From Tistrella mobilis (GTDB lineage Bacteria > Pseudomonadota > Alphaproteobacteria > Tistrellales > Tistrellaceae), in NCBI RefSeq assembly GCF_041468085.1, contig NZ_CP121017.1, forward strand, positions 2,793,676 to 2,857,675: a DNA stretch of 64,000 nt, given 5' to 3'. Shown here in pieces: positions 34,806 through 50,135 of this stretch. How positions within the stretch are numbered: the stretch's first letter is position 1; every line of letters begins with the position of its first letter. The translations under genes were made by a program, and so were the position numbers. The notes below the pieces were generated by a model that was not told the DNA's origin, made no database searches, and saw only the letters and a list, made by a program, of their open reading frames with translations.

Positions 34806-34821
34806 TGGCACGGATCTTGTA
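34806..34821 (+). promoter_or_regulatory. Sigma-54-like promoter element before nrtA
   Basis: TGGCAC-GGATC-TTGTA resembles the -24/-12 consensus TGGCAC-N5-TTGCA with GG and G spaced correctly; the -12 C is replaced by T. Nitrate assimilation is commonly NtrC/sigma-54 controlled, which favours it, but the key mismatch keeps this tentative. Confidence 0.35.
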
Positions 34822-34901
34822 GGTACCTTGGTGTTGATACCAAAAGGCCCACACTTTCCGAGACCCCCGCCTGCTGCCGCCATCTGCGAGAGCCTGAGCC
34901 C

Positions 34902-36359
34902 ATGACCGACAAGATCGTTCCGCCCGCCTCTCCCGACGCCGCCACCGCCGCTGCGGGGGCACACCGCTTCCGGATCAGCCGGCGGGGATTGCTGGGTGCC
35001 GCCGCAACGCTGGCCGCCGCGCGGCTGCTGCTTCCGGGGGGTGCCTTTGCCGCCGCGACCGGTGCGGCGCCCGAGAAGACCGACCTCACCATCGGCTTCA
35101 TCCCGCTGACCGACTGCGCGCCTCTGGTCATCGCCCATGAGAAAGGCTTCTTCAAGCGCGAAGGCCTGAAGGTCACACTCTCGAAAGAGGCGTCCTGGGC
35201 CAATATCCGCGACAAGATGACCATTGGTGCCCTGGATGCCGCCCATATGCTGGCCGGCATGCCGATCGCCGCGACCCTGGGCCTCGGGGCCATCCCCCAG
35301 GCCCAGGTGACCGCGCTGTCGCTGGACCTGAACGGCAATGCCATCACGCTGTCCAATGCGCTCCATGACCGGATGGTCGCGGCCGACCCGGCGGCTATGG
35401 CCGAACGGCCGATGACCGCGCGGGCGCTGAAGGCGGTGATCGATGCCGACAAGGCCGCCGGCAAGGCGCCGCTCACCTTCGCCGCGGTCTTCCCGGTGTC
35501 GTCGCATATGTACGAGCTGCGCTACTGGCTGGCCTCGGCCGGGATCGACCCGGATGCCGATCTGCGCATCATCGTGATCCCGCCGCCGCAGATGGTCGCC
35601 AATCTGCGTGCCGGCAATTGCGACGGCTATTGCGTGGGCGAGCCCTGGAACGAGCGCGCGGTCGAAGCCGGCATCGGCAAGGTCGCGATCACCAGCGTCG
35701 AGCTTTGGGCCAATCAGCCCGAAAAGGTGCTGGGCGTCGCCGCCGACTGGGCGGAGAAGAACCCCGCGACCCACGAGGCGATGCTGCGTGCGGTGATCGC
35801 CGCCGGCCAATGGCTCGACGACCCGGCCAACCGGGCGGAGGCCGCCGACATCATCGCCGGCCGCGCCTATGTGAATGCACCGGCCGAGGTGGTGCGGATG
35901 TCGATGACCGGCACCTTCCGCTATGCCGCCGACGAGGCACCGCGCCCGCTGCCCGATTTCAACGTCTTCAGCCGCTACGCCGCCAACTTTCCCTGGATCA
36001 GCCATGCCGAATGGACGCTGACCCAGATGATCCGCTGGGGCCAGATCGACCGGCCGGTCGACATCGCCGCCACCGCGGCCGCCGTCTACAGGCCCGATCT
36101 CTATCGCAGGGTCGCCGCCCAGATGGGCATCGCGGCACCGACCATCGATCGCAAGCCCGAAGGTGTCAACACCTCCGCCTGGACGTTGACCGAGGCCACC
36201 CGGCCGATCGCCATGGGCCCGGATGTGTTCTTCGACGGCACCCGCTTCGATCCGGCCGACCCGGTCGGCTATATCCGCCGGTTCGCGATCAAGGCCCCGG
36301 CCGTGGACCTGACCGCGCTTGCCGCCGCCCAGACCACCCCGCGCGCCAGCGCCGCCTGA
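34902..36359 (+). CDS. nrtA: Nitrate ABC transporter substrate-binding protein, NrtA type, 485 aa
   Basis: Periplasmic nitrate receptor. A Tat-like signal (SRRGLLGAAATLAAARLLL, residues 27-45) is followed by the NrtA/CmpA block LTIGFIPLTDCAPLVIAHEKGFFKREGL and SKEASWANIRDKMTIGALDAAHMLAGMPIA. Later blocks (CDGYCVGEPWNERAV; NFPWISHAEWTLTQM) are NrtA-specific. Chosen start ATG 34902; an upstream open frame is not similar to the family. Head of a nine-gene operon. Confidence 0.9.
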   Translation: MTDKIVPPASPDAATAAAGAHRFRISRRGLLGAAATLAAARLLLPGGAFAAATGAAPEKTDLTIGFIPLTDCAPLVIAHEKGFFKREGLKVTLSKEASWANIRDKMTIGALDAAHMLAGMPIAATLGLGAIPQAQVTALSLDLNGNAITLSNALHDRMVAADPAAMAERPMTARALKAVIDADKAAGKAPLTFAAVFPVSSHMYELRYWLASAGIDPDADLRIIVIPPPQMVANLRAGNCDGYCVGEPWNERAVEAGIGKVAITSVELWANQPEKVLGVAADWAEKNPATHEAMLRAVIAAGQWLDDPANRAEAADIIAGRAYVNAPAEVVRMSMTGTFRYAADEAPRPLPDFNVFSRYAANFPWISHAEWTLTQMIRWGQIDRPVDIAATAAAVYRPDLYRRVAAQMGIAAPTIDRKPEGVNTSAWTLTEATRPIAMGPDVFFDGTRFDPADPVGYIRRFAIKAPAVDLTALAAAQTTPRASAA

Positions 36360-36376: not shown

Positions 36377-37198
36377 ATGGCCGACATCTCCCTCGACGGT
36401 GCCGCAAAACCCGGCACCGGCATCGGACGGCGCCTCGGCCTTGTGGCCGAACGCATCGTCTGGCCGCTTCTGACCCTCGCCGTCGCACTCGGCGGCTGGA
36501 CATTGATCCAGCAGACGGTGGCGACCGACCTGCCGGGCGTGGGTGAAACCCTCGCCCGCGGCATCGAGCTGTTTTCAGACCCGTTCTACGTCGCGGGCCC
36601 CAATGATCAGGGCATCTTCTGGCAGCTGCTCTATTCGCTGGGCCGGGTGCTGGCGGGCTTCGGCCTCGCCTGCCTGATCGGCCTGCCGCTGGGCCTGCTG
36701 ATCGGCACCAGCCAGGCGGCATCCCGCGCCTTCACCCCGTTCATCGAGGTGATGCGCCCGGTCAGCCCGCTCGCCTGGCTGCCGATCGGCCTGCTGCTGT
36801 TCCGGGCGGTCGATCCGTCGGCAATCTTCGTGATCCTGATCACCAGCATCTGGCCGGTGATCCTGAACACCGCCGCCGGTGTGCGCGCCGTGCCGGCCGA
36901 TTACGTCCAGGTCGGCCGCGTGCTGCGCCTGGGGCGGCTTGCCATGTTCCGCCGCATCCTGCTGCCCGCCGCCCTGCCCTATGTGCTGGCCGGCATGCGG
37001 CTGTCGCTCGGCACCGCCTGGATGGTGATCGTGGCAGCAGAAATGCTGACCGGCGGGGTCGGCATCGGCTTCTTCATCTGGGACGAGTGGAACAACCTCT
37101 CGGTCCCCAGCATCCTGGTGGCGATCGTCCTGATCGGGCTGGTGGGCATCGCCCTTGATGCCGCCATGGCCGCCGTCCAGCGCCGTCTTTCCCACTGA
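36377..37198 (+). CDS. nrtB: Nitrate ABC transporter permease, NrtB type, 273 aa
   Basis: Inner-membrane permease, about six helices. The cytoplasmic EAA loop SPLAWLPIGLLLFRAVDPSAIF and the following VPADYVQVGRVLRLGRLAMFRRILLPAALPYVLAGMR segment are diagnostic of the NrtB/SsuC/TauC class. Start ATG 36377 after AGGAG; a longer overlapping frame that would run inside nrtA is rejected. Works with the ATPase directly downstream. Confidence 0.9.
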   Translation: MADISLDGAAKPGTGIGRRLGLVAERIVWPLLTLAVALGGWTLIQQTVATDLPGVGETLARGIELFSDPFYVAGPNDQGIFWQLLYSLGRVLAGFGLACLIGLPLGLLIGTSQAASRAFTPFIEVMRPVSPLAWLPIGLLLFRAVDPSAIFVILITSIWPVILNTAAGVRAVPADYVQVGRVLRLGRLAMFRRILLPAALPYVLAGMRLSLGTAWMVIVAAEMLTGGVGIGFFIWDEWNNLSVPSILVAIVLIGLVGIALDAAMAAVQRRLSH

Positions 37199-37225: not shown

Positions 37226-38053
37226 ATGACCAACCGACCGCATCTCTCGATCGAAGGCGTCGATCTCGACTTCCGCACCCGCGACGGTGTCCGCCCGATC
37301 CTGCGCGGCATCGATCTGAAAATCGCCCGGGGTGAATTCGTGGCGGTGATCGGCCATTCCGGCTGCGGCAAATCCACCCTGCTCAACATCGTGGCCGGGC
37401 TGATCACACCCGAACGCGGGGCCATCCTGCTCGACGACAAGGTGGTCGACGCCCCCGGCCCCGACCGGGCGATGGTCTTTCAGTCCCATGCCCTGCTGCC
37501 CTGGCTGACGGTGCGCGAGAATGTGGCGCTGGCAGTGGATCAGGTCCATCGCCGGACCATGGATGCCGCCGCCCGCGCACGGCTGATCGACGAGCATCTG
37601 GCGATGGTGCGCATGGATCATGCCGCGGCGCGCCGGCCGCACGAGCTGTCGGGCGGCATGCGCCAGCGGGTCGGCATCGCCCGGGCGCTGGCCATGCGCC
37701 CGGCCGTGCTGCTGATGGACGAGCCCTTCGGCGCGCTCGACGCGCTCACCCGCGCCCGGCTCCAGGACGAGTTGATGGCCATCCAGGCCGATCTGTCGAT
37801 GACGGTGATGATGGTCACCCACGACGTCGACGAGGCCGCCCTGCTCGCCGACCGGGTGGTGATGATGACGGAAGGCCCGGCCGCGCGGATCGGCCGGATC
37901 GTCGATATTCCCCTCGCCCGCCCGCGCCGCCGGTCGCAGGTGCTGCGCGACCCCGCCTTCATCGAGGCACGGGTGCAGATGCTGTCCTTCCTCCATGGCG
38001 ATGCCGCAGAGGATGCCGACGCCGCGGCGATGCTCGCCGTCGCGGCGGAATGA
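37226..38053 (+). CDS. nrtD: Nitrate ABC transporter ATPase, NrtD type, 275 aa
   Basis: ATP-binding subunit. Walker A GHSGCGKSTLLN, signature LSGGMRQRVGIARALAM, Walker B LLMDEPFGALDA and H-loop VTHDVDEA are complete. A single ATPase without the NrtA-like C-terminal domain of cyanobacterial NrtC, so both nucleotide sites of the importer are probably this protein. Overlaps the nirB open frame by four bases; ribosome site AGAGGGA. Confidence 0.9.
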   Translation: MTNRPHLSIEGVDLDFRTRDGVRPILRGIDLKIARGEFVAVIGHSGCGKSTLLNIVAGLITPERGAILLDDKVVDAPGPDRAMVFQSHALLPWLTVRENVALAVDQVHRRTMDAAARARLIDEHLAMVRMDHAAARRPHELSGGMRQRVGIARALAMRPAVLLMDEPFGALDALTRARLQDELMAIQADLSMTVMMVTHDVDEAALLADRVVMMTEGPAARIGRIVDIPLARPRRRSQVLRDPAFIEARVQMLSFLHGDAAEDADAAAMLAVAAE

Positions 38054-38067
38054 GCGGAGGTCTTCAG

Positions 38068-40545
38068 ATGCACACCACCCGGGACCGCATCCTCGTCATC
38101 GGCGCCGGCATGGCCGGCACGCGGCTGGTTCAGGACCTGGTCGCGCTCGCGCCCGGCGCCTGCGACATCACCCTGATCGGCGCCGAACCCCACGCCCCCT
38201 ATGACCGGATCATGCTCTCGCCCGTGCTGGCGGGGGAAAAGACCGCAGAGGCGATCCGCCTGCTGGACGACGACTTCCTGGATCGCCATGGCGTGACCTT
38301 CCTGGCCGGCGACGCCGTAACCGGCATCGATCGGGCCGCGCGGCACGTCACCACCGCCACCGGCCGGCGGCTGGATTATGACCGGCTGGTGCTGGCCACC
38401 GGGTCGCAGCCGATCCGCCTGCCCCTGCCCGGTGCGGCGCTTTCGGGCGTCGTCACCTTCCGCGACCTCGGCAATGTCGATACCATGCTGGCCCTGGGCC
38501 GGCCCGGCGCCCCGGCAGTGGTGATCGGCGGCGGGCTGCTCGGCCTTGAAGCCGCAGCCGGGCTTGCCGGGCGGGGCATGAAGGTGACGGTGGTCCACCT
38601 GGCCGGCCATGTGATGGAACGCCAGCTGGATGCCGAGGCCGGCGGCATGCTGGCGGATGCCCTCGCCGCCCGCGGCATCACCACGGTCACCACCGCGAAC
38701 AGCCGGGCGATCCTGGACGATGGCACCGGCCGGGTCGCGGGGCTGGAACTCGCCGATGGCCGGGTGCTGCCGGCGGAGCTGCTGGTGATGGCGGTCGGCA
38801 TCCGGCCCGAGACCGGCCTCGCCCGCGCGGCGGGGCTGGAGGTCGGCCGCGGCATCCTGGTCGACGACCGGCTGACGACGTCCGATCCGGCGATCGCGGC
38901 GCTTGGCGAATGCGTCGAATTCGACGGTCAGTGCTTCGGCCTGGTGGCCCCCCTCTACGATCAGGCGAAAGTGCTGGCGCGGGCATTGGCCGGCCGGCCC
39001 GGCGACGGCTTCGCCCTCCGCCCCACCGCCACCCGGCTCAAGGTCTCGGGCGTCGACGTGTTCTCGGCCGGCAGTCTGGGCGGCGCGGATGCCGAAGAGA
39101 TCACGCTGCGCGATGCCGCCCGCGGCAGCTATCGCAAGCTGGTGATCCGTGACGACAGGCTGGCCGGCGTGGTGATGTACGGCGATGTCGCCGACGGCCC
39201 CTGGTTCTTCGAAACCATGCGCAGGGCGGAGCCGCTGGGCGCCCTCCGCGACCGGCTGATCTTCGGCCCGTCCTTCGCCGCCGGCCCCTCGGCCACGGGT
39301 GCCGATGCCGCGACCGCCGCCGTGGCCGCCCTTGCCGACGATGCCGAAATCTGCGGCTGCAACGGCGTCTGCAAGGGCACGATCACCGCGGCGATCGCGG
39401 CCCAGGGTCTCACCAGCCTCGACGAGGTGCGCGCCCATACCAAGGCCTCCGCCTCCTGCGGGTCGTGCAGCGGCCAGGTGAAGGCGCTGCTCGGCCTGTG
39501 CCTGGGTGGGGCAGCACCGGCAGAGGCAGAGGATGCCGATCCGGCGATCTGCACCTGCACCGACCTCGGCCATGATGCGGTTCGCGCGCGGCTCGGCGAG
39601 CTGCCGGCCATGACCGCGATCGAGGCCATGGCGGTGCTGGGCTGGAAGACGCCCGAAGGCTGTTCGAAATGCCGGCCGGCGCTGAACTATTATCTGCTCT
39701 GCGCCCATCCGGCCGCGGGTGTCGACGACCCGGCCTCGCGCTTCGTGAACGAGCGCGTGCACGCCAACATCCAGAAGGACGGCACCTTCTCGGTGGTGCC
39801 GCGGATGTGGGGCGGGTTGACGTCGGCCGCCGAACTGCGCGCCATCGCCGATATCGTCGACCGCTACGACATCCCGACCGTGAAGGTGACCGGCGGCCAG
39901 CGCATCGACCTGCTGGGCGTGCGCAAGCAGGATCTGCCGGCGGTCTGGCGCGATCTGAACGCCGCCGGCATGGTCTCGGGCCATGCCTATGCCAAGGGCC
40001 TGCGCACGGTGAAGACCTGCGTCGGATCCGAATGGTGCCGCTTCGGCACGCAGGATTCGACCGGGCTGGGCGTCAAACTCGAACGGATCACCTGGGGCGC
40101 CTGGATGCCGCACAAGTTCAAGATGGCGGTGTCGGGCTGCCCGCGGAACTGTGCCGAGGCGACGATCAAGGATTTCGGCGTGATCTGCGTCGACAGCGGC
40201 TACGAGCTGGTGGTCGGCGGCAATGGCGGCATCCATCTGCGCGGCACCGACCCGCTGACCAAGGTTTCGACCGAAGCCGAGGTGATCGAGATCTGCCTGG
40301 CCTTCATCCAGTTCTATCGCGAGGACGCCCGCTATCTGGAGCGCACGGCGCCCTGGATCGAGCGCATCGGTCTCGACCGCGTGAAGGCGGTGGTGGTGAC
40401 GGATACCGCCGCCCGCCAGGCGCTCGCCGCCCGGTTCCTGGCCTCTCAGGCCCATGCACAGAACGACCCCTGGGCAAGCATCGCCGCCGCACCCGGCGCC
40501 GAATTCGCGGCCATCGACGTCCCCGCCCGCCAGGCGGCCGAATAA
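38068..40545 (+). CDS. nirB: Assimilatory NADH-nitrite reductase large subunit, 825 aa
   Basis: Reduces nitrite to ammonium with NAD(P)H. An N-terminal FAD/NAD(P)H domain (VIGAGMAGTRL; second Rossmann VVIGGGLLGLEAAAGLAGRG), a BFD-like [2Fe-2S] domain (CGCNGVCKG and CGSCSGQVK), a second Cys-rich element (ICTCTDL and CSKCRPALN), then the siroheme/[4Fe-4S] reductase half with CVGSEWC and CPRNCAEATIKDFG, the four cluster/siroheme ligands. Start at 38068 uses GGAGG eight bases upstream; ATG 38050 would add six residues. Cytoplasmic. Confidence 0.95.
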   Translation: MHTTRDRILVIGAGMAGTRLVQDLVALAPGACDITLIGAEPHAPYDRIMLSPVLAGEKTAEAIRLLDDDFLDRHGVTFLAGDAVTGIDRAARHVTTATGRRLDYDRLVLATGSQPIRLPLPGAALSGVVTFRDLGNVDTMLALGRPGAPAVVIGGGLLGLEAAAGLAGRGMKVTVVHLAGHVMERQLDAEAGGMLADALAARGITTVTTANSRAILDDGTGRVAGLELADGRVLPAELLVMAVGIRPETGLARAAGLEVGRGILVDDRLTTSDPAIAALGECVEFDGQCFGLVAPLYDQAKVLARALAGRPGDGFALRPTATRLKVSGVDVFSAGSLGGADAEEITLRDAARGSYRKLVIRDDRLAGVVMYGDVADGPWFFETMRRAEPLGALRDRLIFGPSFAAGPSATGADAATAAVAALADDAEICGCNGVCKGTITAAIAAQGLTSLDEVRAHTKASASCGSCSGQVKALLGLCLGGAAPAEAEDADPAICTCTDLGHDAVRARLGELPAMTAIEAMAVLGWKTPEGCSKCRPALNYYLLCAHPAAGVDDPASRFVNERVHANIQKDGTFSVVPRMWGGLTSAAELRAIADIVDRYDIPTVKVTGGQRIDLLGVRKQDLPAVWRDLNAAGMVSGHAYAKGLRTVKTCVGSEWCRFGTQDSTGLGVKLERITWGAWMPHKFKMAVSGCPRNCAEATIKDFGVICVDSGYELVVGGNGGIHLRGTDPLTKVSTEAEVIEICLAFIQFYREDARYLERTAPWIERIGLDRVKAVVVTDTAARQALAARFLASQAHAQNDPWASIAAAPGAEFAAIDVPARQAAE

Positions 40546-40559
40546 GGAAGCGCGCGCCC

Positions 40560-40967
40560 ATGACCATCCTCGCCGATATGACCGCCGCCCGCGCCGATAC
40601 CACGGACTGGATCGATTGCGGCACGCTGGACGAGCTGCCGCTGCGCGGCGCCCGGGTGATCCGCCACCAGGGCGGCAGCATCGCCCTGTTCCGGCCGGCG
40701 GACGGCCCGCCGGCCGCCATCGCCAATGCCTGCCCGCACAGGGGCGGCCCCCTGGCGGACGGGCTGGTCCACGGCCGCGCGGTCACCTGCCCGCTGCATG
40801 GTCGGGTGTTCAGTCTGGATGACGGCCGGGCGGCCGCACCCGACCGCGACTGCGTCGCCCGCTACCCCGTTGCCGTCACGGCAGAGGGCCGGGTGCTGGT
40901 GCGGCTGCGGCCGCTGAGCCCGGCGGCACCTGCCGGGGCCGGGCTGATCGCCGAGGCGGCGGAATGA
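40560..40967 (+). CDS. nirD: Nitrite reductase small subunit (Rieske type), 135 aa
   Basis: Partner of NirB. Rieske-type [2Fe-2S] ligands are complete: CPHRGGPLADG..CPLHGRVF, that is Cys-X-His with Cys-X-X-His. The N-terminal GTLDELPLRGARV and C-terminal VAVTAEGRVLVRL are NirD-like. ATG 40560 after AAGGAAG; the stop overlaps the NasA start by four bases. Confidence 0.9.
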   Translation: MTILADMTAARADTTDWIDCGTLDELPLRGARVIRHQGGSIALFRPADGPPAAIANACPHRGGPLADGLVHGRAVTCPLHGRVFSLDDGRAAAPDRDCVARYPVAVTAEGRVLVRLRPLSPAAPAGAGLIAEAAE

Positions 40968-43672
40968 CCGCCCTGCCGCCGCCGGCCGCCATCCGCACCA
41001 CCTGCGCCTATTGCGGGGTGGGATGCGGCGTGCTGGCCCGGCCGGATGGCCAGGGCGGGCTGCTGCCGGTTACGGGCGACCCGGCGCATCCGGCCAATCG
41101 CGGCCGGCTCTGCGGCAAGGGGGCCGGCCTCGCCGACACGCTGGGCGGTGCCGGGCGGCTGACCCGGGCGCGGATCGATGGCCGGCCGGTCCCGCTCCAT
41201 ATCGCCCTCGACCATGTGGCCCAAGGCTTCCGCCGGGCACGGGCCGAACGCGGCCCGGGCGGCATCGCCTTCTATCTGTCGGGCCAGATGCTGACCGAGG
41301 ATTATTACGCCGCCAACAAGCTGGCCAAGGGCTTCCTGGGCAGCGCCAATGTCGACACGAACTCCCGGCTCTGCATGTCCTCTACCGTCGCCGGCCATGT
41401 TCGCGGCTTCGGCGAGGATGTGGTGCCGGGGGCCTATGAGGATCTGGATCTCTGCGATCTGGCGGTGCTGGTCGGCTCCAACGCCGCCTGGTGCCATCCG
41501 GTGCTGTTCGGCCGGCTGATGGAGGCCCGCGCAAGCCGGGGCACGCGGCTGATCGTGATCGATCCGCGGGCGACCGATACCAGCCGCGCCGCCGATCTGC
41601 ACCTCGCCATCCGCCCGGGCAGCGATGCCGCCCTCTGGCAGTTCCTGCTGGTCGAGGCCTGTCGCCGCGGCCTGGCCGATCCCGCCGCGGAAGGCTTTGC
41701 GGCGGCGATCGAAGCCGCGCGCACCGACTGCCCCGACATGGCCGCCTGCGCGGCGCTGACCGACATCACCCCCGCCGATCTTGCCCGCCTGGCCGAGATG
41801 GTGCTGGGCACGGCCCGCTGCGTCACGCTGTTCAGCCAGGGCGTCAACCAGTCGAGCGCCGGTACCGACAAGGTGAACGCGATCCTGAATCTGGAGATCG
41901 CGCTCGGCCGCGTCGGCCGCCCGGGGGCCGGGCCGTTCTCGCTGACCGGCCAGCCCAATGCCATGGGCGGGCGCGAGGTCGGCGGGCTGGCCAATCAACT
42001 GGCGGCGCATCTGGGTTTCTCCGACGCCGAGCGCCGGCTGGTCGGCGATGTCTGGCAGGCCACCGACATGGCCGTTGGCCCCGGGCTGAAGGCGGTGGAG
42101 CTGATCGATGCGCTGGAGGCGGGAAAGATCGGCGCGCTCTGGATCATCGGCACCAATCCCGCCGTCAGCCTGCCCGATGCCGGCCGCTTCCGCCGGGCGC
42201 TGTCGCGCTGTCCGCTGGTGGTGATATCGGATTGCGTGGCCGGCACCGACACCCAGGCGCTGGCCCATGTGCTGCTGCCTGCGGCCGGCTGGTCGGAAAA
42301 GGACGGCACCGTCACCAATTCCGAGCGCCGGATCAGCCGGCAACGCGCGGTGCTGCCGCCGCCCGGCGACGCCCGCCCCGACTGGTGGCTGATTGCGGAG
42401 GTCGCCCGGCGCCTGGGCTTCGGCCATGCCTTCGCCTGGCGCCACCCGGCCGAGATCTTCGACGAACATGCCCGGCTGTCGGGCCTTGCTGCGGCAGCCT
42501 TCGGCCGGCATTTCGACATCGCCGGCCTGTCCGGGCTGACCCGCAGCCAGTACGACGCACTGGAGCCGGTGCAATGGCCGGTGCCGGCCGGCAGCCGCGA
42601 GGGCACCGCGCGGGTGGTGCCGTCCCAGCGCCTGATCGCCCTGCACCATCGCCCGCCCATGGAGCGTGCGACGCAGCCGGGGGAGCTGGTGCTCAACACC
42701 GGCCGGCTGCGCGACCAGTGGCACACCATGACCCGGACCGGCCGGGCCGCGCGGCTGGCCCGCCATGCCCCGGAACCCCTGCTGGCCGTGAACCCGGCAG
42801 ATGCACAGGCGGCGGGGCTTGGCGAGGGCGGTTTTGCGCGGATCACCGGCCGGCGCGGCACCGCCCTTTTGCGGGTCACGATCGATCCGGGCCAGCGGCG
42901 GGGCGAGGTCTTCGCGCCCATGCACTGGTCCGATGCCTTCGCCGCCGAAGCCGCCATCGGCCGCCTCGCCTCCCCCGCCACCGACCCGGTCTCCGGCCAG
43001 CCGGAGCTGAAGCATGCGGTTATCCGCCTCGCCCCCTGGCGGCCCGGCTGGTCGGGGGTGATGGTCGATCGCGCGACCCGCGGGCCGCTGCGCCGCGGCG
43101 TGCGCCTGCCCGCCTATTGGGTCCGCCACGCGGTCGAGGCCGGCCGGGCGGTGACCCTGGCCGGGGACGAGATGCCGGCCACCGCAGAGGACTGGCGGCA
43201 GCTCGCCACCCGTCTTGCCCGGGGTTTCGGTGCCGCGATCGATGCGGGGCCGGCGATCGAGCTGATCGACGCCGCCCGCGGCCGGTTGCGGCTGGCCTGG
43301 ACAGGGACCGACGGCCGGATCGTGGCGGTGATCGCGCTTGCCCGCGATCCGCAGCATCTGCCCGACACCATGTCGGTCGCCCGCCTGCTCGACCCGGCAA
43401 CCGATCGCGGCGCCGCAGCCCCTGCCGCCCTGCGCCTGGCCCTGCTCGCCGATCATGATCCCGATCGCGGGGCCGCCCCGGCGGAAGCCGCGATCTGTGC
43501 CTGCGCCGGGGTGGGCCGAAGCGCCATCCTCGCCGCGGCCGGCACGGGTCCGCTCGACCGGAGACTGGCCCGGGTGACCGCAGCCACCGGCGCCGGCGGC
43601 GGTTGCGGATCCTGCCGCCACCGGATCGGCTCCATCCTCAGCGAGGTCATGCCCCATGTCGAACCGGCCTGA
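40964..43672 (+). CDS. nasA: Assimilatory nitrate reductase catalytic subunit, 902 aa
   Basis: Molybdenum (bis-MGD) enzyme reducing nitrate to nitrite. The N-terminal [4Fe-4S] site CAYCGVGCGV with a following C in GRLCGKG, then LCMSSTVAGHVRGFGEDVVPGAYEDLDL and the Mo-binding YxxxN-type TGQPNAMGGREVGGLANQL region. The C-terminal tail (about 840-895; CACAGVGR...GGGCGSCRHRIG) is a fused BFD-like [2Fe-2S] domain used for electron entry. GTG/ATG start overlaps nirD; overlaps cysG by 17 bases at the end. Cytoplasmic, no signal peptide. Confidence 0.9.
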   Translation: MTALPPPAAIRTTCAYCGVGCGVLARPDGQGGLLPVTGDPAHPANRGRLCGKGAGLADTLGGAGRLTRARIDGRPVPLHIALDHVAQGFRRARAERGPGGIAFYLSGQMLTEDYYAANKLAKGFLGSANVDTNSRLCMSSTVAGHVRGFGEDVVPGAYEDLDLCDLAVLVGSNAAWCHPVLFGRLMEARASRGTRLIVIDPRATDTSRAADLHLAIRPGSDAALWQFLLVEACRRGLADPAAEGFAAAIEAARTDCPDMAACAALTDITPADLARLAEMVLGTARCVTLFSQGVNQSSAGTDKVNAILNLEIALGRVGRPGAGPFSLTGQPNAMGGREVGGLANQLAAHLGFSDAERRLVGDVWQATDMAVGPGLKAVELIDALEAGKIGALWIIGTNPAVSLPDAGRFRRALSRCPLVVISDCVAGTDTQALAHVLLPAAGWSEKDGTVTNSERRISRQRAVLPPPGDARPDWWLIAEVARRLGFGHAFAWRHPAEIFDEHARLSGLAAAAFGRHFDIAGLSGLTRSQYDALEPVQWPVPAGSREGTARVVPSQRLIALHHRPPMERATQPGELVLNTGRLRDQWHTMTRTGRAARLARHAPEPLLAVNPADAQAAGLGEGGFARITGRRGTALLRVTIDPGQRRGEVFAPMHWSDAFAAEAAIGRLASPATDPVSGQPELKHAVIRLAPWRPGWSGVMVDRATRGPLRRGVRLPAYWVRHAVEAGRAVTLAGDEMPATAEDWRQLATRLARGFGAAIDAGPAIELIDAARGRLRLAWTGTDGRIVAVIALARDPQHLPDTMSVARLLDPATDRGAAAPAALRLALLADHDPDRGAAPAEAAICACAGVGRSAILAAAGTGPLDRRLARVTAATGAGGGCGSCRHRIGSILSEVMPHVEPA

Positions 43673-45035
43673 TACAGTGGCTGATCTGCCCCTCGCCCTG
43701 CGGCTGACCGGCCGGCGGGTGGTGGTCTTCGGCGCCGGGCCGGGGGCCGCGGCCAAGCTCGCCCTGCTTGACGATACCGGGGCCGACATCGCCCTTCATG
43801 ACGATGCTCCGGCCTGTGCGGAACTTTCGGGGCGCGTGGTTCACCCGCTCCATCCCCTGCCCGACCTTGCCGGCACCCGGCTGGTGGTGATCGCACCAGA
43901 GATCGACGCGGCGACGGCACGGTCCATCGCCGATGCGGCCGCCATGGCCGGCGCGCTGGTCCATGCAGTCGACCGGCCGGCGCTTTCGGACGTCACCCTG
44001 CCCGCCCTGGTGCGGCGCGGGCCGCTCCGGGTCGCGATCCATACCGGCGGCCGCTTTCCGGCCCTGGCCTCGGTGCTGCGCCAGCGGCTGGAGGCGCTGC
44101 TGCCGGCAGGGCTCGGCCCGGCGGTCACCGAGGCCGGGAACCGCCGCGACGAAATCGCCCGGCGCCTGACCGATCCGGCTGCCCGCCGCGGCTTCTGGCG
44201 ACAGCTGGCCGCCCGGCTGCTGGACCACCCCGAAATCCCGATCGACGACCTGCCGGCCGACGCCAACCCGGTCCAGGCGGGCCGGGTGGATCTGGTCGGC
44301 GCCGGCCCCGGCGGCCCCGGCCTGCTCACCCGCGATGCCGCCCGCGCGATCGAGGCGGCGGATGTCGTGCTCCACGATGCCCTGATCGATCCCGCAATCC
44401 TGGAACTGGCGCGGCGCGAGGCGCGCCGGATCCCGGTCGGCAAGCGCTGCGGCGCCCATGCCATAGGCCAGGCGGCGATTTCGGCGCTGATGGTGCGGCT
44501 GGCGGGTCAGGGGCTGCATGTGGTGCGGCTGAAGGGCGGCGATCCGGCGATCTTCGGACGGCTGGACGAAGAGCTCGGCGCACTCGACGCGGCCGGCATC
44601 CCTGCCCGGATCATCCCCGGCGTGACCGCCGCCGCCGCGGCCGCCGCCCATCTCCGCCGGCCGCTGACCCTGCGCGGAACGGCCCGTTCGGTGTCGCTGG
44701 TGGCGGGCCATGATCTGGCGGGCGACCTGCCCGAAACGATCGGGCGACTGGCCGCCGCAGAGGGCACGCTCGCGATCTATATGGGCCGCGACCGGGCACC
44801 CGCGATCGTGGCGGCGCTGATCGCCGCGGGGCGCGATCCGGCGGAACCCGCCGCCGCAGTCGAATGGGCGGGGCGCCCGCATGCCCGATCGGTCAGCGTA
44901 CCGCTCGTCATGCTCCCCGATGCGTTGGTAGGGCTCGACGCCGACGGCCCGGTGACGATACTGGTGGGAGAGGCGATCGCCGTTTCCGCAACCGCTGCCC
45001 GCCCGGCCGATGCGGAAGGGCGCGACGCCGCCTGA
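43656..45035 (+). CDS. cysG: Siroheme synthase CysG, 459 aa
   Basis: Makes the siroheme needed by NirB. An N-terminal Rossmann precorrin-2 dehydrogenase/ferrochelatase part (GRRVVVFGAGPGAAAKLALL, somewhat divergent from the usual Gly-Gly-Gly-X-Val loop) and dimerisation linker are followed by the uroporphyrinogen-III C-methyltransferase with VDLVGAGPGGPGLLTRDAARAIEAADVVLHD and VVRLKGGDPAIFGR...GVTAAAAAAAHLRRPLTLRG. Gene order directly after nasA makes the role plain. Confidence 0.9.
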   Translation: MSNRPDTVADLPLALRLTGRRVVVFGAGPGAAAKLALLDDTGADIALHDDAPACAELSGRVVHPLHPLPDLAGTRLVVIAPEIDAATARSIADAAAMAGALVHAVDRPALSDVTLPALVRRGPLRVAIHTGGRFPALASVLRQRLEALLPAGLGPAVTEAGNRRDEIARRLTDPAARRGFWRQLAARLLDHPEIPIDDLPADANPVQAGRVDLVGAGPGGPGLLTRDAARAIEAADVVLHDALIDPAILELARREARRIPVGKRCGAHAIGQAAISALMVRLAGQGLHVVRLKGGDPAIFGRLDEELGALDAAGIPARIIPGVTAAAAAAAHLRRPLTLRGTARSVSLVAGHDLAGDLPETIGRLAAAEGTLAIYMGRDRAPAIVAALIAAGRDPAEPAAAVEWAGRPHARSVSVPLVMLPDALVGLDADGPVTILVGEAIAVSATAARPADAEGRDAA

Positions 45036-45055: not shown

Positions 45056-46072
45056 ATGACCGACATCACATCCGACGCCGTCGCCACCCTCGCCCAGGCC
45101 CTTGGCATCATCGGTCGCGGCCCCGGTCGATCGCGGCCGCTGACCCGCAGCGAAGCCCGGGATGCCTTCGCGGCCCTGCTGCAGGGAACCGCGCTCGATG
45201 TCCAGGCCGGCGCCTTCCTGCTGCTCATGCGCTATCGCGGCGAGACGGCCGAGGAACTGGCCGGGCTGGTCGATGCCGCCCGCGCTCATATCGCCCAGGT
45301 CGATATCGGTGCAGCGCCCGGGGGCAGCGTCCGGCCGGTGCTCGACTGGCCGAGCTATGCCGCCGGCCGCACCCGCGGCCTGCCCTGGTATCTGCTCGCG
45401 GCCCGGCTGCTGGGCGAGGCCGGCGTGCCGGTGCTGATGCATGGCGACAACGATCTTCAGACCGGCGGCATCGGTGCGGTACAGGGGCTGGCGGCGCTGG
45501 GGCTTTCGCCCGCGGCGGATCTGTCCGAAGCGGCCGGCCGGCTGGGGCACGAGGGTTTCGTCTATCTGCCGCTGGCGGGGCTATCGCCCGATCTCAAGCG
45601 GCTGCTCGACCTGCGCAGCGTGCTGGGGCTGCGCTCGCCGGTGAACACGCTGGTCCGCCATCTGAACCCGCTGGATGCCCCCGCGACCCTGATCGGGGTC
45701 TTTCATCCCAACTATCTCGACAGCCATGCCGAGGCCTCGCTGCTGCTGGATGCCGGGCGCTGGCTTGGTGTGGTCAAAGGGGCGGGTGGCGAGGGGGAGC
45801 GCCGGCCGCATAAGCCGGTCGATCTGCGCCTGGTTGAACAGGGGACATCGAAGGTCGAGCACTGGCCGGCCCTGCTGGCGGCGGCACCGGCCGACAGCCC
45901 CGACGACCCCGCCCGCCTCGCCGCCCTCTGGCGGGGCGAGGCCGAGGATCCAGAAGGCGAGGCGACGGTGATCGGCACGGCGGCCGTGGCGCTGCGCATC
46001 GCCGGCCGTGCCTCGACGCCATGGGCGGCCGACGCCCTTGCCCGCAGCCTTTGGAGCCACCGGCGGCGATGA
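45056..46072 (+). CDS. TrpD2/YbiB-like protein of the nitrate operon, 338 aa
   Basis: Anthranilate phosphoribosyltransferase-fold protein of the YbiB type, which in Escherichia coli binds nucleic acids and has lost transferase residues. SEARDAFAALLQGTALDVQAGAFLLLMRYRGETAEELAGL is the typical helical start, with MHGDNDLQTGGIG in place of the active-site glycine loop. ATG 45056 after GGAA; the stop overlaps the kinase start (ATGA). Its presence in nitrate assimilation operons is known but unexplained, so its job is open. Confidence 0.8.
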   Translation: MTDITSDAVATLAQALGIIGRGPGRSRPLTRSEARDAFAALLQGTALDVQAGAFLLLMRYRGETAEELAGLVDAARAHIAQVDIGAAPGGSVRPVLDWPSYAAGRTRGLPWYLLAARLLGEAGVPVLMHGDNDLQTGGIGAVQGLAALGLSPAADLSEAAGRLGHEGFVYLPLAGLSPDLKRLLDLRSVLGLRSPVNTLVRHLNPLDAPATLIGVFHPNYLDSHAEASLLLDAGRWLGVVKGAGGEGERRPHKPVDLRLVEQGTSKVEHWPALLAAAPADSPDDPARLAALWRGEAEDPEGEATVIGTAAVALRIAGRASTPWAADALARSLWSHRRR

Positions 46073-47589
46073 GGATCGACGGCGGCGACCCGACCCGGAT
46101 GGCACTGCGCTACCGGCTGGCCCTGGGGCTGGTCGCAGCACTTGCGATCGGCTCCTTCCTGGTGCTGACCCAGGTGATCAGCCGTGAACGGGCCACTGCC
46201 GGGATCATCAATGTCAGTGGCCAGCAGCGCTTCCTGTCGCAGCGCGGTGCCCTGTTCGTGGGCCGCCTGACCTATCCGGTCTCGGCCCAGGAGCATCAGG
46301 ATGCCCGCCAGCATCTGTCGGAAGTCATCGCGCAGATGCGCAGCAATCACGAGGCGCTGCTGAAGGGCGGGTCCGGCAAAGGGGATGCCGTCGGCCTCTC
46401 GCCCGAGATGTCGCGGCTGTTCCACGACGAGCCGTCGGCGATCGACCGCCGGGTGCGGGAATATCTGGCGGCGATGGAGGCGGTGCTCACCGATCCGCGC
46501 GCGCCGATCCCGCGCGATGCGCCGGCCGTGGCGCTGGTGCTGCGCGAAGGGCCGGGCCCCCTGCTCGACGTGCTCGACCATGCCGTCGCCTGCTTCCAGG
46601 CCGAAGGCGAGGCCGCCGTCGACCGGCTGCACGACCTGCATATCGCCCTGCTGATCGCCACCCTGCTGACCCTGGCGCTGGAAGCCCTGCTGATCTTCCA
46701 GCCGATGGCCACGGCGGCCCGGCGCCGTATCCGCGAGCTTGAGACCGCCTCCCTGGCGCTCAAGGCCGCGGCCGAGCGGCTGGAGGGAGAGGTCGCCGCC
46801 CGCACGGTGGAGTTGCAGAAGGCCAAGGAACGCGCCGAACGGGCCAATGTCGCCAAAGCCCGCTTCCTCGCCACCGCCGGCCACGACCTGCTGCAGCCGA
46901 TCGAATCGCTGCGCCTGCTCGCCGGCTCGATCACCCGCCGTAATCGCGACCCGGCCCTGTCTTCGCCGCTCGACGACATGCGCAAGGCGCTCTCGGGCAT
47001 GCGCGGCCTGCTCGGCAACCTGCTCGACACCGCCCGGCTCGACACCGGATCGGTCACGCCGCAACTTCAGGATGTCGACCCGGCCGCCCTGATCGACGAT
47101 CTGGCCCGCGAGTTCGAGCCGGTGGCAGAGGATAAGGGGCTGGGTTTCGGCGTCGAGATCAGGCTGATCGATGGCCTCCGCATACGCACGGATCCGGTGA
47201 TCACCGGCCGGATCCTGCGCAATTTCCTCTCGAACGCCGTGCGCTACACCGCCGCCGGCTCGGTGACCCTGATCGCCGCCCCCGCAGAGCTCGACGGCCG
47301 GCCGGCGGTGCGCTTCACCGTCGCCGATACCGGCCCCGGCATCGATCCGGCCGATCAGGAGCGGATCTTCGCCGAATTCACCCAGATCGAGGATGCCCGG
47401 CGCGACCGTTCGGCCGGTGTGGGCCTGGGCCTCTCCATCGCCCGGCGCATGGCCCAGATCCTGGAACATGAGCTGACGCTCGACAGCCGCCCCGGCGAAG
47501 GGGCGCGCTTCGCCCTGACCGTGCCGCTCGCCCCGGCCGCGAAGCGTGCGCTCAGGTCATCAGAAAAGCCGATACCCGCGGACGATTAA
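46069..47589 (+). CDS. Membrane histidine kinase with a PilJ/NarX-like signal box, 506 aa
   Basis: Sensor kinase co-translated with the nitrate operon. Helix 1 is about residues 19-36, then a periplasmic helical domain that starts INVSGQQRFLSQRGA (47-61). This resembles the P-box of NarX/NarQ (nitrate binding) and the PilJ sensor domain. Helix 2 (about 190-210), a HAMP-like linker and coiled coil, then the His box at His272 (AGHDLLQPIESL), the N box (FLSNAVRYT), G1 DTGPGI and G2 GVGLGLSIA. Start ATG 46069. No receiver domain and no response regulator gene adjacent; partner unknown. A nitrate sensor is inference. Confidence 0.8.
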   Translation: MRIDGGDPTRMALRYRLALGLVAALAIGSFLVLTQVISRERATAGIINVSGQQRFLSQRGALFVGRLTYPVSAQEHQDARQHLSEVIAQMRSNHEALLKGGSGKGDAVGLSPEMSRLFHDEPSAIDRRVREYLAAMEAVLTDPRAPIPRDAPAVALVLREGPGPLLDVLDHAVACFQAEGEAAVDRLHDLHIALLIATLLTLALEALLIFQPMATAARRRIRELETASLALKAAAERLEGEVAARTVELQKAKERAERANVAKARFLATAGHDLLQPIESLRLLAGSITRRNRDPALSSPLDDMRKALSGMRGLLGNLLDTARLDTGSVTPQLQDVDPAALIDDLAREFEPVAEDKGLGFGVEIRLIDGLRIRTDPVITGRILRNFLSNAVRYTAAGSVTLIAAPAELDGRPAVRFTVADTGPGIDPADQERIFAEFTQIEDARRDRSAGVGLGLSIARRMAQILEHELTLDSRPGEGARFALTVPLAPAAKRALRSSEKPIPADD

Positions 47590-47762
47590 TTCTATTTTAC
47601 ACTCGCCCCGTGCTGGGTGAGCCTGACCTGAAGCACACGCCCGCATACCTGGACATGGCTGGAGACACGGCACCCGAAAACCGCCCGCGCGGTTTCCGGC
47701 AGGGGGGAGCCTGCGCCGCGATCAGCCTCCGGGAAGGGATCACGAGGGAGGGCCGCAAGCTC

Positions 47763-50135
47763 ATGGGCCAGATCGGTCGACCGCTTCGCCGCAAGGAGGA
47801 TGCCCGCTTCCTGACCGGGGCGGGCCAGTATGTCGCCGACGCCGCCGCACGGCTGGGTGCGGTGCATATGCGCATCCTGCGCTCACCCCATGGTGCGGCG
47901 CTGATCCGGGCAATCGACACCGGCGCCGCCCGTGCCCTGCCCGGCGTGCTCGACGTGATCACCGGCGCCGATCTTGAGAAGATCGGCATCGGCGGCCTGC
48001 CCTGCGCCTGGCCGGTCATCAGCCGCGACGGCTCAGCGATGATCCATCCGCCGCATCCCGTGCTGGCGGTGGACCGGGTGCTGCATGTCGGCGACCCGCT
48101 GGCGGCGGTGGTCGCCGAGACCGAGGCCCAGGCCGATGCGGCGGTGGAAGCGATCGAGGTCGATTACGCCCCCCTGCCCTGCCAGACCGACCTTGCCACC
48201 GCGCTTGATCCCGGCGCCGCACGGGTTCGGGCGGAACTGCCCCACAACCGCTGCTTCGACTGGGATCTGGGCGATGCGGCCGCGGTGGATGCGGCCCTTG
48301 CCGCCAGCCCGCGGGTGGTGACGCTGGATCTGATCCAGAACCGGGTGAACGCAAGCCCGATGGAGACCCGCGGCACGCTCGGCGTCTATGACCGCGGCCA
48401 TGGCGACTACACGCTCTGGACCTCCAGCCAGAACCCGCATTCGATCCGCGTGACGCTCTCGGCCGCAACGCTCAAGGTGCCCGAGGAAAAGCTCCGGGTG
48501 ATCTCGCCCGATGTCGGCGGCGGCTTCGGCATGAAGATCTATCACTATGCGGAAGAGGTGCTGGTGCTGGTGGCGGCAAAACGCACCGGCCGGCCGGTAC
48601 GCTGGATCGCGAGCCGGCTGGAAGCCTTCCAGGCCGACACCTATGCCCGCGACCATGTGACGACGGTGTCGCTGGGCCTGGACGAGGACGGCCGCTTCCG
48701 GGCGATGAAGGTGCACACGCTGGCCAATATGGGCGCCTATCTCTCCACCTTCGCGCCGTCGATCCCGACCTTCTTCTATGCCAACCCCTTCCCCGGCCCC
48801 TATGCCCTGCGCGACGTCTATGTCCATGTCGAGGGGGTGTTCACCAATACCACACCGGTCGACGCCTATCGCGGCGCCGGCCGGCCCGAGGCGACCTATG
48901 TGATGGAGCGGATCGTCGAGACGGCGGCGCGCGAACTCGGCATGGACCCGTTCGAGATCCGCAGGATGAACGCGATCCCGCCCGAGGCCATCCCCTACCG
49001 CACCCCCTTCCTCTGGACCTATGATTCGGGCGATCTGCCGGCGCTGATGGATCTTGCCCGTGCAGCCGCCGATCTGGAGGGCTATGCAGACCGCAAGGCC
49101 GCCTCGGCCGCGAAGGGTCTCCGCCGTGGCATGGGGGTCGCCTTCTACATGGAGGCCTGCGGCATGGGCCCGTCGAAGCTGCTGATCGAAGCCGGGCTCG
49201 GCGGCGGCCAGTTCGAAGTGGCGACGGTGCGGGTGGGGCCGACCGGCGGCATCATGGTGCTGACCGGCAGCCATTCCCATGGCCAGGGCCACGAAACCGC
49301 CTTCGCCCAGATCGTGGCCGATAAGACCGGCATCGATCCCGCCCTGATCGAGATCGTCCATGGCGACACCGCGAAGGTGCCCTATGGCGTCGGCACCTAC
49401 GGGTCGCGCTCGCTCTCGGTCGGCGGCTCGGCGCTGGCGGTCACCACCGACAAGGTGGTGACCAAGATGACCCGCATCGCCGCCCATATGCTGGGCACCA
49501 CGCCAGGGGAGGTCGACCTGGCCGACGGCATCTTCCGGATGCGCGCGACCAATCGCAGCCTGACTTTCGCCGAGGTTGCCGGCCGCGCCTATGCCCCGGT
49601 CGACTACCCGCCGGGGATGGAGCCCGGCATCGACGAGACCACCTATTACGATCCGGAAGCCTTCACCTTCCCCTATGGCTGCCACATCGTCGAGGTCGAG
49701 ATCGATACCGACACCGGCACGACGAAGGTCGACCGTTACCTGGCGGTGGATGATTTCGGCCGGATCGTGAACCCGTTGATCGTGGAAGGCCAGATCCATG
49801 GCGGTGCCGCCCAGGCCATCGGCCAGGCCTGCATGGAGCTCTGCCGCTACGACCCTGAGAGCGGCCAGCTGCTCACCGGCTCGTTCATGGATTATGCCAT
49901 GCCGCGGGCGACCGACGTGCCGCCGGTGGAACTGGTGTCGATGGAAACCCTCTGCACCACCAATCCGCTCGGTGCCAAGGGCTGCGGCGAGGCCTCGGCG
50001 ATCGCCGGGCCGGCGGCGGTGATCAACGCCATTGCCGATGCGCTCCACGATCTGGGCGTGCGCCATGTCGACATGCCGGCGACACCCGAACGGGTCTGGC
50101 GGGCGATCGTCTCGGCCGGTCTCAACCGGCCATGA
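47763..50135 (+). CDS. Form II CoxL-like molybdoenzyme large subunit (orphan), 790 aa
   Basis: Xanthine dehydrogenase/CO dehydrogenase-family large subunit that binds molybdopterin cytosine dinucleotide. N-terminal IGRPLRRKEDARFLTGAGQY, VGGGFGMK, and the CoxL active-site loop reading DAYRGAGRPEA instead of the form I AYRCSFR, which places it in form II (also called CoxL-like). GCGEASAIAGPAAV near the end. No FAD-binding medium or [2Fe-2S] small subunit genes flank it. Start ATG 47763 with GAGGG. 3' end overlaps gltS by 14 bases, tail to tail. Substrate is unknown; calling it a CO oxidiser would be wrong without the form I loop. Confidence 0.85.
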   Translation: MGQIGRPLRRKEDARFLTGAGQYVADAAARLGAVHMRILRSPHGAALIRAIDTGAARALPGVLDVITGADLEKIGIGGLPCAWPVISRDGSAMIHPPHPVLAVDRVLHVGDPLAAVVAETEAQADAAVEAIEVDYAPLPCQTDLATALDPGAARVRAELPHNRCFDWDLGDAAAVDAALAASPRVVTLDLIQNRVNASPMETRGTLGVYDRGHGDYTLWTSSQNPHSIRVTLSAATLKVPEEKLRVISPDVGGGFGMKIYHYAEEVLVLVAAKRTGRPVRWIASRLEAFQADTYARDHVTTVSLGLDEDGRFRAMKVHTLANMGAYLSTFAPSIPTFFYANPFPGPYALRDVYVHVEGVFTNTTPVDAYRGAGRPEATYVMERIVETAARELGMDPFEIRRMNAIPPEAIPYRTPFLWTYDSGDLPALMDLARAAADLEGYADRKAASAAKGLRRGMGVAFYMEACGMGPSKLLIEAGLGGGQFEVATVRVGPTGGIMVLTGSHSHGQGHETAFAQIVADKTGIDPALIEIVHGDTAKVPYGVGTYGSRSLSVGGSALAVTTDKVVTKMTRIAAHMLGTTPGEVDLADGIFRMRATNRSLTFAEVAGRAYAPVDYPPGMEPGIDETTYYDPEAFTFPYGCHIVEVEIDTDTGTTKVDRYLAVDDFGRIVNPLIVEGQIHGGAAQAIGQACMELCRYDPESGQLLTGSFMDYAMPRATDVPPVELVSMETLCTTNPLGAKGCGEASAIAGPAAVINAIADALHDLGVRHVDMPATPERVWRAIVSAGLNRP

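Follow-up and report, generated by a model that had tools for sequence, protein, structure and literature searches.

The last gene of the nitrate-assimilation (nas) operon in this 64,000-nucleotide stretch of Tistrella DNA (the window) encodes a membrane histidine kinase that, in our judgment, is probably the sensor half of a split alphaproteobacterial nitrate-type two-component system, with the kinase captured by the nas operon. The kinase looks partnerless only because of distance: its probable response regulator is encoded about 1.06 million bases from it. The kinase gene is intact and conserved, both partners have orthologues in relatives, and the kinase is linked to nas in Tistrella and to periplasmic nitrate reductase (nap) genes in some of those relatives.

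The operon starts at 34902 and runs nrtA-nrtB-nrtC-nirB-nirD-nasA-cysG-PRK09071-like-kinase with every gene on the + strand (Table 1), an order common to all three Tistrella genomes examined; mobB lies upstream in divergent orientation. The PRK09071 gene at 45056-46072, which is anthranilate phosphoribosyltransferase-like, is an additional member of the operon. Its TGA stop falls inside the ATG of the kinase, and this ATGA overlap is the translational junction that the earlier note on this DNA had described; the kinase coordinates, strand, and frame given there were also exact on re-check. Translational coupling of the kinase to the preceding gene is predicted from the overlap, and its position supports co-transcription with nas. 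Directly 3′ of the kinase, in 3/3 Tistrella genomes, lies a molybdenum hydroxylase large subunit of the xanthine dehydrogenase/CO dehydrogenase family (47610-50135, +), in agreement with the earlier statement that no response regulator adjoins the kinase. A simple scan found no terminator between these two genes, so nas-operon transcripts may extend into the hydroxylase gene.

Table 1. Features of the nas operon and its terminal kinase, in window coordinates.
Feature	Position	Strand	Basis
Sigma54-like site TGGCACGGATCTTGTA before nrtA	34806..34821	+	pattern scan
Near-palindrome TTGGTGTTGATACCAA, just downstream of the sigma54-like site	34828..34843	+	kept in three Tistrella genomes
nrtA-type nitrate-binding protein, twin-arginine-like signal sequence	34902..36359	+	profile/sequence
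nrtB, nitrate ABC transporter permease	36377..37198	+	TIGR01183 over cut-off
nrtC, nitrate ABC transporter ATPase	37226..38053	+	TIGR01184 over cut-off
nirB, nitrite reductase large subunit	38068..40545	+	829 bits, cut-off 578
nirD (Rieske)	40560..40967	+	profile
nasA-type assimilatory nitrate reductase, C-terminal Fer2_BFD	40964..43672	+	profile
cysG, siroheme synthase	43656..45035	+	profile
Glycosyl-transferase-family/anthranilate phosphoribosyltransferase-like protein (PRK09071)	45056..46072	+	322 bits, cut-off 257
ATGA stop/start overlap of the PRK09071-like gene with the kinase	46069..46072	+	sequence
Membrane histidine kinase, 506 aa, final nas-operon gene	46069..47589	+	ORF, Pfam domains, synteny
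PilJ-type periplasmic four-helix sensor domain, residues 38-151	46180..46521	+	Pfam PF13675, E 1.2e-17; model
N-box INVSGQQRFLSQ, residues 47-58	46207..46242	+	sequence; kept in relatives; motif definition PMC6381276
HisKA dimerisation/phosphoacceptor domain	46852..47049	+	Pfam, E 5.8e-07
HATPase_c kinase domain	47194..47532	+	Pfam, E 9.7e-24; sequence; alignment

The kinase is 95% identical in two other Tistrella genomes, and between species its dN (about 0.025) is well below its dS (0.23-0.26), which indicates a gene under purifying selection. With the gene order and the kinase both kept in those two genomes at low dN, the arrangement is not due to chance. A reverse-strand open frame across the kinase (45712-47469) was rejected: it is unsupported, and the gene that it overlaps on the + strand is conserved and under purifying selection; we put it down to high-GC composition.

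From its N-terminus, the kinase comprises TM1, the PilJ domain, TM2, a long coiled helix, HisKA, and HATPase_c. The PilJ match, the only one in its genome, exceeds the curated Pfam cut-off. The phosphoacceptor H272 (codon 46882-46884) sits within GHDLLQP and is invariant in an alignment of orthologues (n = 6), and the N (N385), G1 (DTGPGI), and G2 (GVGLGLS) boxes of HATPase_c are all intact. Pfam gave no HAMP or GAF match between the membrane and the DHp domain, where the predicted structure has one continuous helix after TM2, and no receiver domain in the kinase, the latter as the earlier note had stated.

Full-length relatives outside Tistrella share 36-41% identity with the kinase, most of them being from Azospirillum or other Rhodospirillales. 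At L003, L119, L120, L123, and L125, a convergent NarL-type regulator comes directly after the kinase; these loci belong to A. thermophilum, A. soli, two Rhodospirillales MAGs, and a Hyphomicrobiales MAG. At L120, L123, and L131, from A. soli, Caenispirillum salinarum, and one MAG, the kinase and a nap operon are transcribed divergently. The napA match at these last three loci reaches 1467-1597 bits (cut-offs 904-931); profiles also identified napG, napH, and napC in A. soli, and remnants resembling napD and napF were read by eye near the kinase at L119. The linkage of kinase, nap, and regulator is probably one ancestral arrangement kept across several families rather than the product of repeated independent linkage. 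Counting against a split system, most Azospirillum orthologues have neither a response regulator nor nap within 10 kb.

The Tistrella orthologue of these regulators is a lone gene (G000:C4:1777284-1778030), flanked by unrelated genes in all three species, with no kinase seen near it in any of them; other close NarL-type regulators of Tistrella, on C1 and C4, have kinases adjoining them. In a regulator tree (n = 45), the lone gene groups with the kinase-adjacent regulators (support 100/98), and in a kinase-domain tree (n = 39), the window kinase groups with the matching kinases (97/95). The two trees pick out the same lineages. A scan of 385 genomes of the class returned the same pair of genomes outside Tistrella as the two best for the regulator and the two best for the kinase. 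The kinase had been called an orphan, a description that now applies to its position only: the orthologous partners adjoin in relatives, and this synteny together with the matching trees points to one lone regulator. On inspection, the phospho-acceptor residues of the lone regulator are intact, and its receiver carries zero amino-acid changes between the window's own genome and T. mobilis. The own-genome copy (L114:9285-10031) contains a repeated GQIGT expansion of the linker between receiver and HTH that is absent from two sister species. A regulator of the same clade also occurs in a MAG (G224; L196:5158-5808, on a 6.9-kb contig) with no kinase adjoining it, which counts against the proposed split pairing.

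The earlier note expected a sensing route other than NasS/NasT or NtrBC. The first half of that expectation holds, as NasS/NasT control appears absent: the only ANTAR regulator of the own genome is AmiR-like and lies between amide/urea-type binding proteins, and neither a NIT domain nor a NasT-like ANTAR protein was found in three Tistrella genomes. We therefore rejected NasT/NasS or a NIT-type regulator as the nas controller. The second half fares less well: with NtrC present in the own genome and a sigma54-like site before nrtA, control by NtrBC is possible; the ammonium-limitation signal is probably supplied separately by NtrC. The site, TGGCACGGATCTTGTA, is the sole sigma54-like match in the window (0.08 expected) and is similar across three Tistrella species. 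Its -12 element has GT for the canonical GC, so we regard it as suggestive only. The near-palindrome TTGGTGTTGATACCAA is close to the expected transcription start of the operon and is a possible operator. NarL-type regulators usually work with sigma70, and the sigma54-like look of the promoter counts against NarL-type control. In a search for an operator common to the nas promoter and the stretches between nap and the kinase, the best patterns were no better than shuffles, which also counts against the split-system reading.

The sigma54-like site, along with NtrC, raises an alternative that we consider unlikely, though deserving of some weight: a nitrate-sensing kinase that is a passenger of the nas operon and acts through the lone regulator on respiration or some other process, with NtrBC alone running nas and the operon position merely tying the kinase level to nitrate use. 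The linkage of orthologues to nap, not nas, fits this account, as does the presence of narG in the own genome and in T. mobilis. This respiratory narG lies on a second replicon (L163, G000:C1:604138-607845). The third Tistrella genome (G001) argues the other way. No napA match exceeded the cut-off in any Tistrella genome, and no narG match did so in G001, leaving nas as the sole recognized nitrate reductase there; G001 still keeps the kinase in its nas operon as well as the regulator, which favors nas as the target.

We then considered what the sensor may bind. The "P-box" of the earlier note was right in substance, the motif being the PilJ/McpN N-box INVSGQQRFLSQ with G-x-x-R kept. The published pattern of nitrate-binding PilJ domains is [IVL][ND]xAGxQRML[ST]Q, whose arginine makes key hydrogen bonds; the R61A substitution abolishes binding by McpN (PMC6381276). 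NarX/NarQ and nitrate chemoreceptors share the G-x-x-R motif (PMC8199190). INVSGQQRFLSQ matches the pattern at 10 of the 12 positions, including G51 and R54 of an intact G-x-x-R, and departs from it by A to S and by M to F, the second at a position that contacts nitrate. The Azospirillum N-box, VNVSGRQRMLSQ, matches at 11. N48, Q53, and R54 are invariant across six kinase orthologues, and R54 is nearly so across 25 relatives; we predict R54 (codon 46228-46230) to be the anion ligand. As a single sequence, the sensor had no match in a PDB search, and a 25-row profile was needed to obtain any. Its best relative was then the nitrate domain of McpN (6gcv, E 1.2e-07), with PilJ proper far behind (E 0.0087). 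The sensor is predicted to be a helical bundle (mean pLDDT 87.9), for which NarQ ranked first in both Foldseek (E 6.4e-03) and VIA-align 2 (Z 14.3, a comparison in which helical bundles score high generally); McpN showed 22% identity in the structure comparison. Judging from the alignment ends only, the first helix may be in register with NarQ at an offset of 3, which would put R54 on NarQ R50.

PilJ itself binds no nitrate, and domains of its family vary in ligand (PMC6381276). Together with the two N-box differences, one of them at the methionine contact, this would suit a sensor of some other small anion, or one without any ligand, the kinase then reading something other than nitrate. With G-x-x-R intact, McpN as the nearest solved relative, and linkage to nap in orthologues and to nas in Tistrella, we find such a sensor improbable. 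In the Hyphomicrobiales MAG (L125/L009), the kinase-regulator pair is kept and the N-box is degraded to NMMAGQRVLAE; that sensor has probably changed ligand, judging by its motif, and such a degraded motif in a kinase that keeps its regulator counts against the split-system reading. Least credible is a true orphan that signals to NtrC, NtrX, or several regulators instead of the lone NarL-type one: the absence of an adjoining regulator in Tistrella fits it, but the kinase and regulator clades match and the pairs adjoin in relatives, making it very improbable.

In the split system that we favor, periplasmic nitrate (possibly nitrite) would bind the dimer interface through R54 and shift the helices. 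The signal would reach the HisKA core along the helix, the kinase would phosphorylate H272, and the phosphate would pass to the distant NarL-type regulator, which could then adjust nitrate genes, nas first and perhaps narG where present. Made with the operon, the kinase should rise in level when nas is on, and we infer that this rise would act as positive feedback or as a reset of sensitivity.

More tentatively, the kinase may belong to an undescribed alphaproteobacterial nitrate system, in which relatives use a NarX-like sensor on a HisKA core to control the periplasmic nitrate reductase, whereas Tistrella has rewired the system to control nitrate assimilation, replacing NasS/NasT, the operon itself producing the kinase that regulates it; this broader proposal is possible, but we stop short of calling it probable. 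The literature that we searched on PilJ kinases in nitrate assimilation, on nitrate in Tistrella, and on the Azospirillum nap kinase and regulator does not describe such a system. If the proposal is true, nitrate-sensing two-component systems reach the Alphaproteobacteria with a kinase core other than that of NarX/NarQ, and in one lineage the sensor has passed from an operon for respiration to one for assimilation. Naming a predicted partner replaces an untestable "orphan" with a single, specific phosphotransfer prediction.

Several known systems invite comparison. NasS-NasT would meet the same need, a nitrate signal for nas, whereas the Tistrella protein is a membrane kinase in a genome without a detected NasT-like ANTAR regulator. 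The hybrid kinases NahK/ErcS' give the best NCBIfam match of the kinase core, and the regulators of relatives best match ErdR (105 bits, cut-off 390). The kinase falls below the cut-offs of both NahK/ErcS' models (NF041832 and NF041831; 207 of 400 and 162 of 1500 bits) and, unlike those proteins, has a membrane PilJ sensor and no receiver. The McpN chemoreceptor of P. aeruginosa (PDB 6gcv), the nearest solved relative in sequence, shares the PilJ sensor family and the N-box, which has two substitutions in Tistrella; its output is a chemotaxis signaling domain, whereas that of the Tistrella protein is a histidine kinase.

The nitrate-nitrite sensor kinases NarX/NarQ with NarL/NarP of E. coli resemble the proposed system in their periplasmic four-helix sensor, their G-x-x-R nitrate motif, and, in the orthologous pairs, a NarL-type partner. 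Set against the published description of the NarX/NarQ family (PMC8199190), the kinase has the motif and, as predicted, the four-helix fold but a HisKA (PF00512) core in place of HisKA_3, and it has neither HAMP nor a GAF-like module. Bacteroidetes members of that family also do without HAMP and GAF-like modules (PMC8199190). With a HisKA core and no HAMP or GAF, the Tistrella kinase is not a NarX/NarQ family member; it is instead an alphaproteobacterial protein that resides in an assimilatory operon and has its regulator elsewhere.
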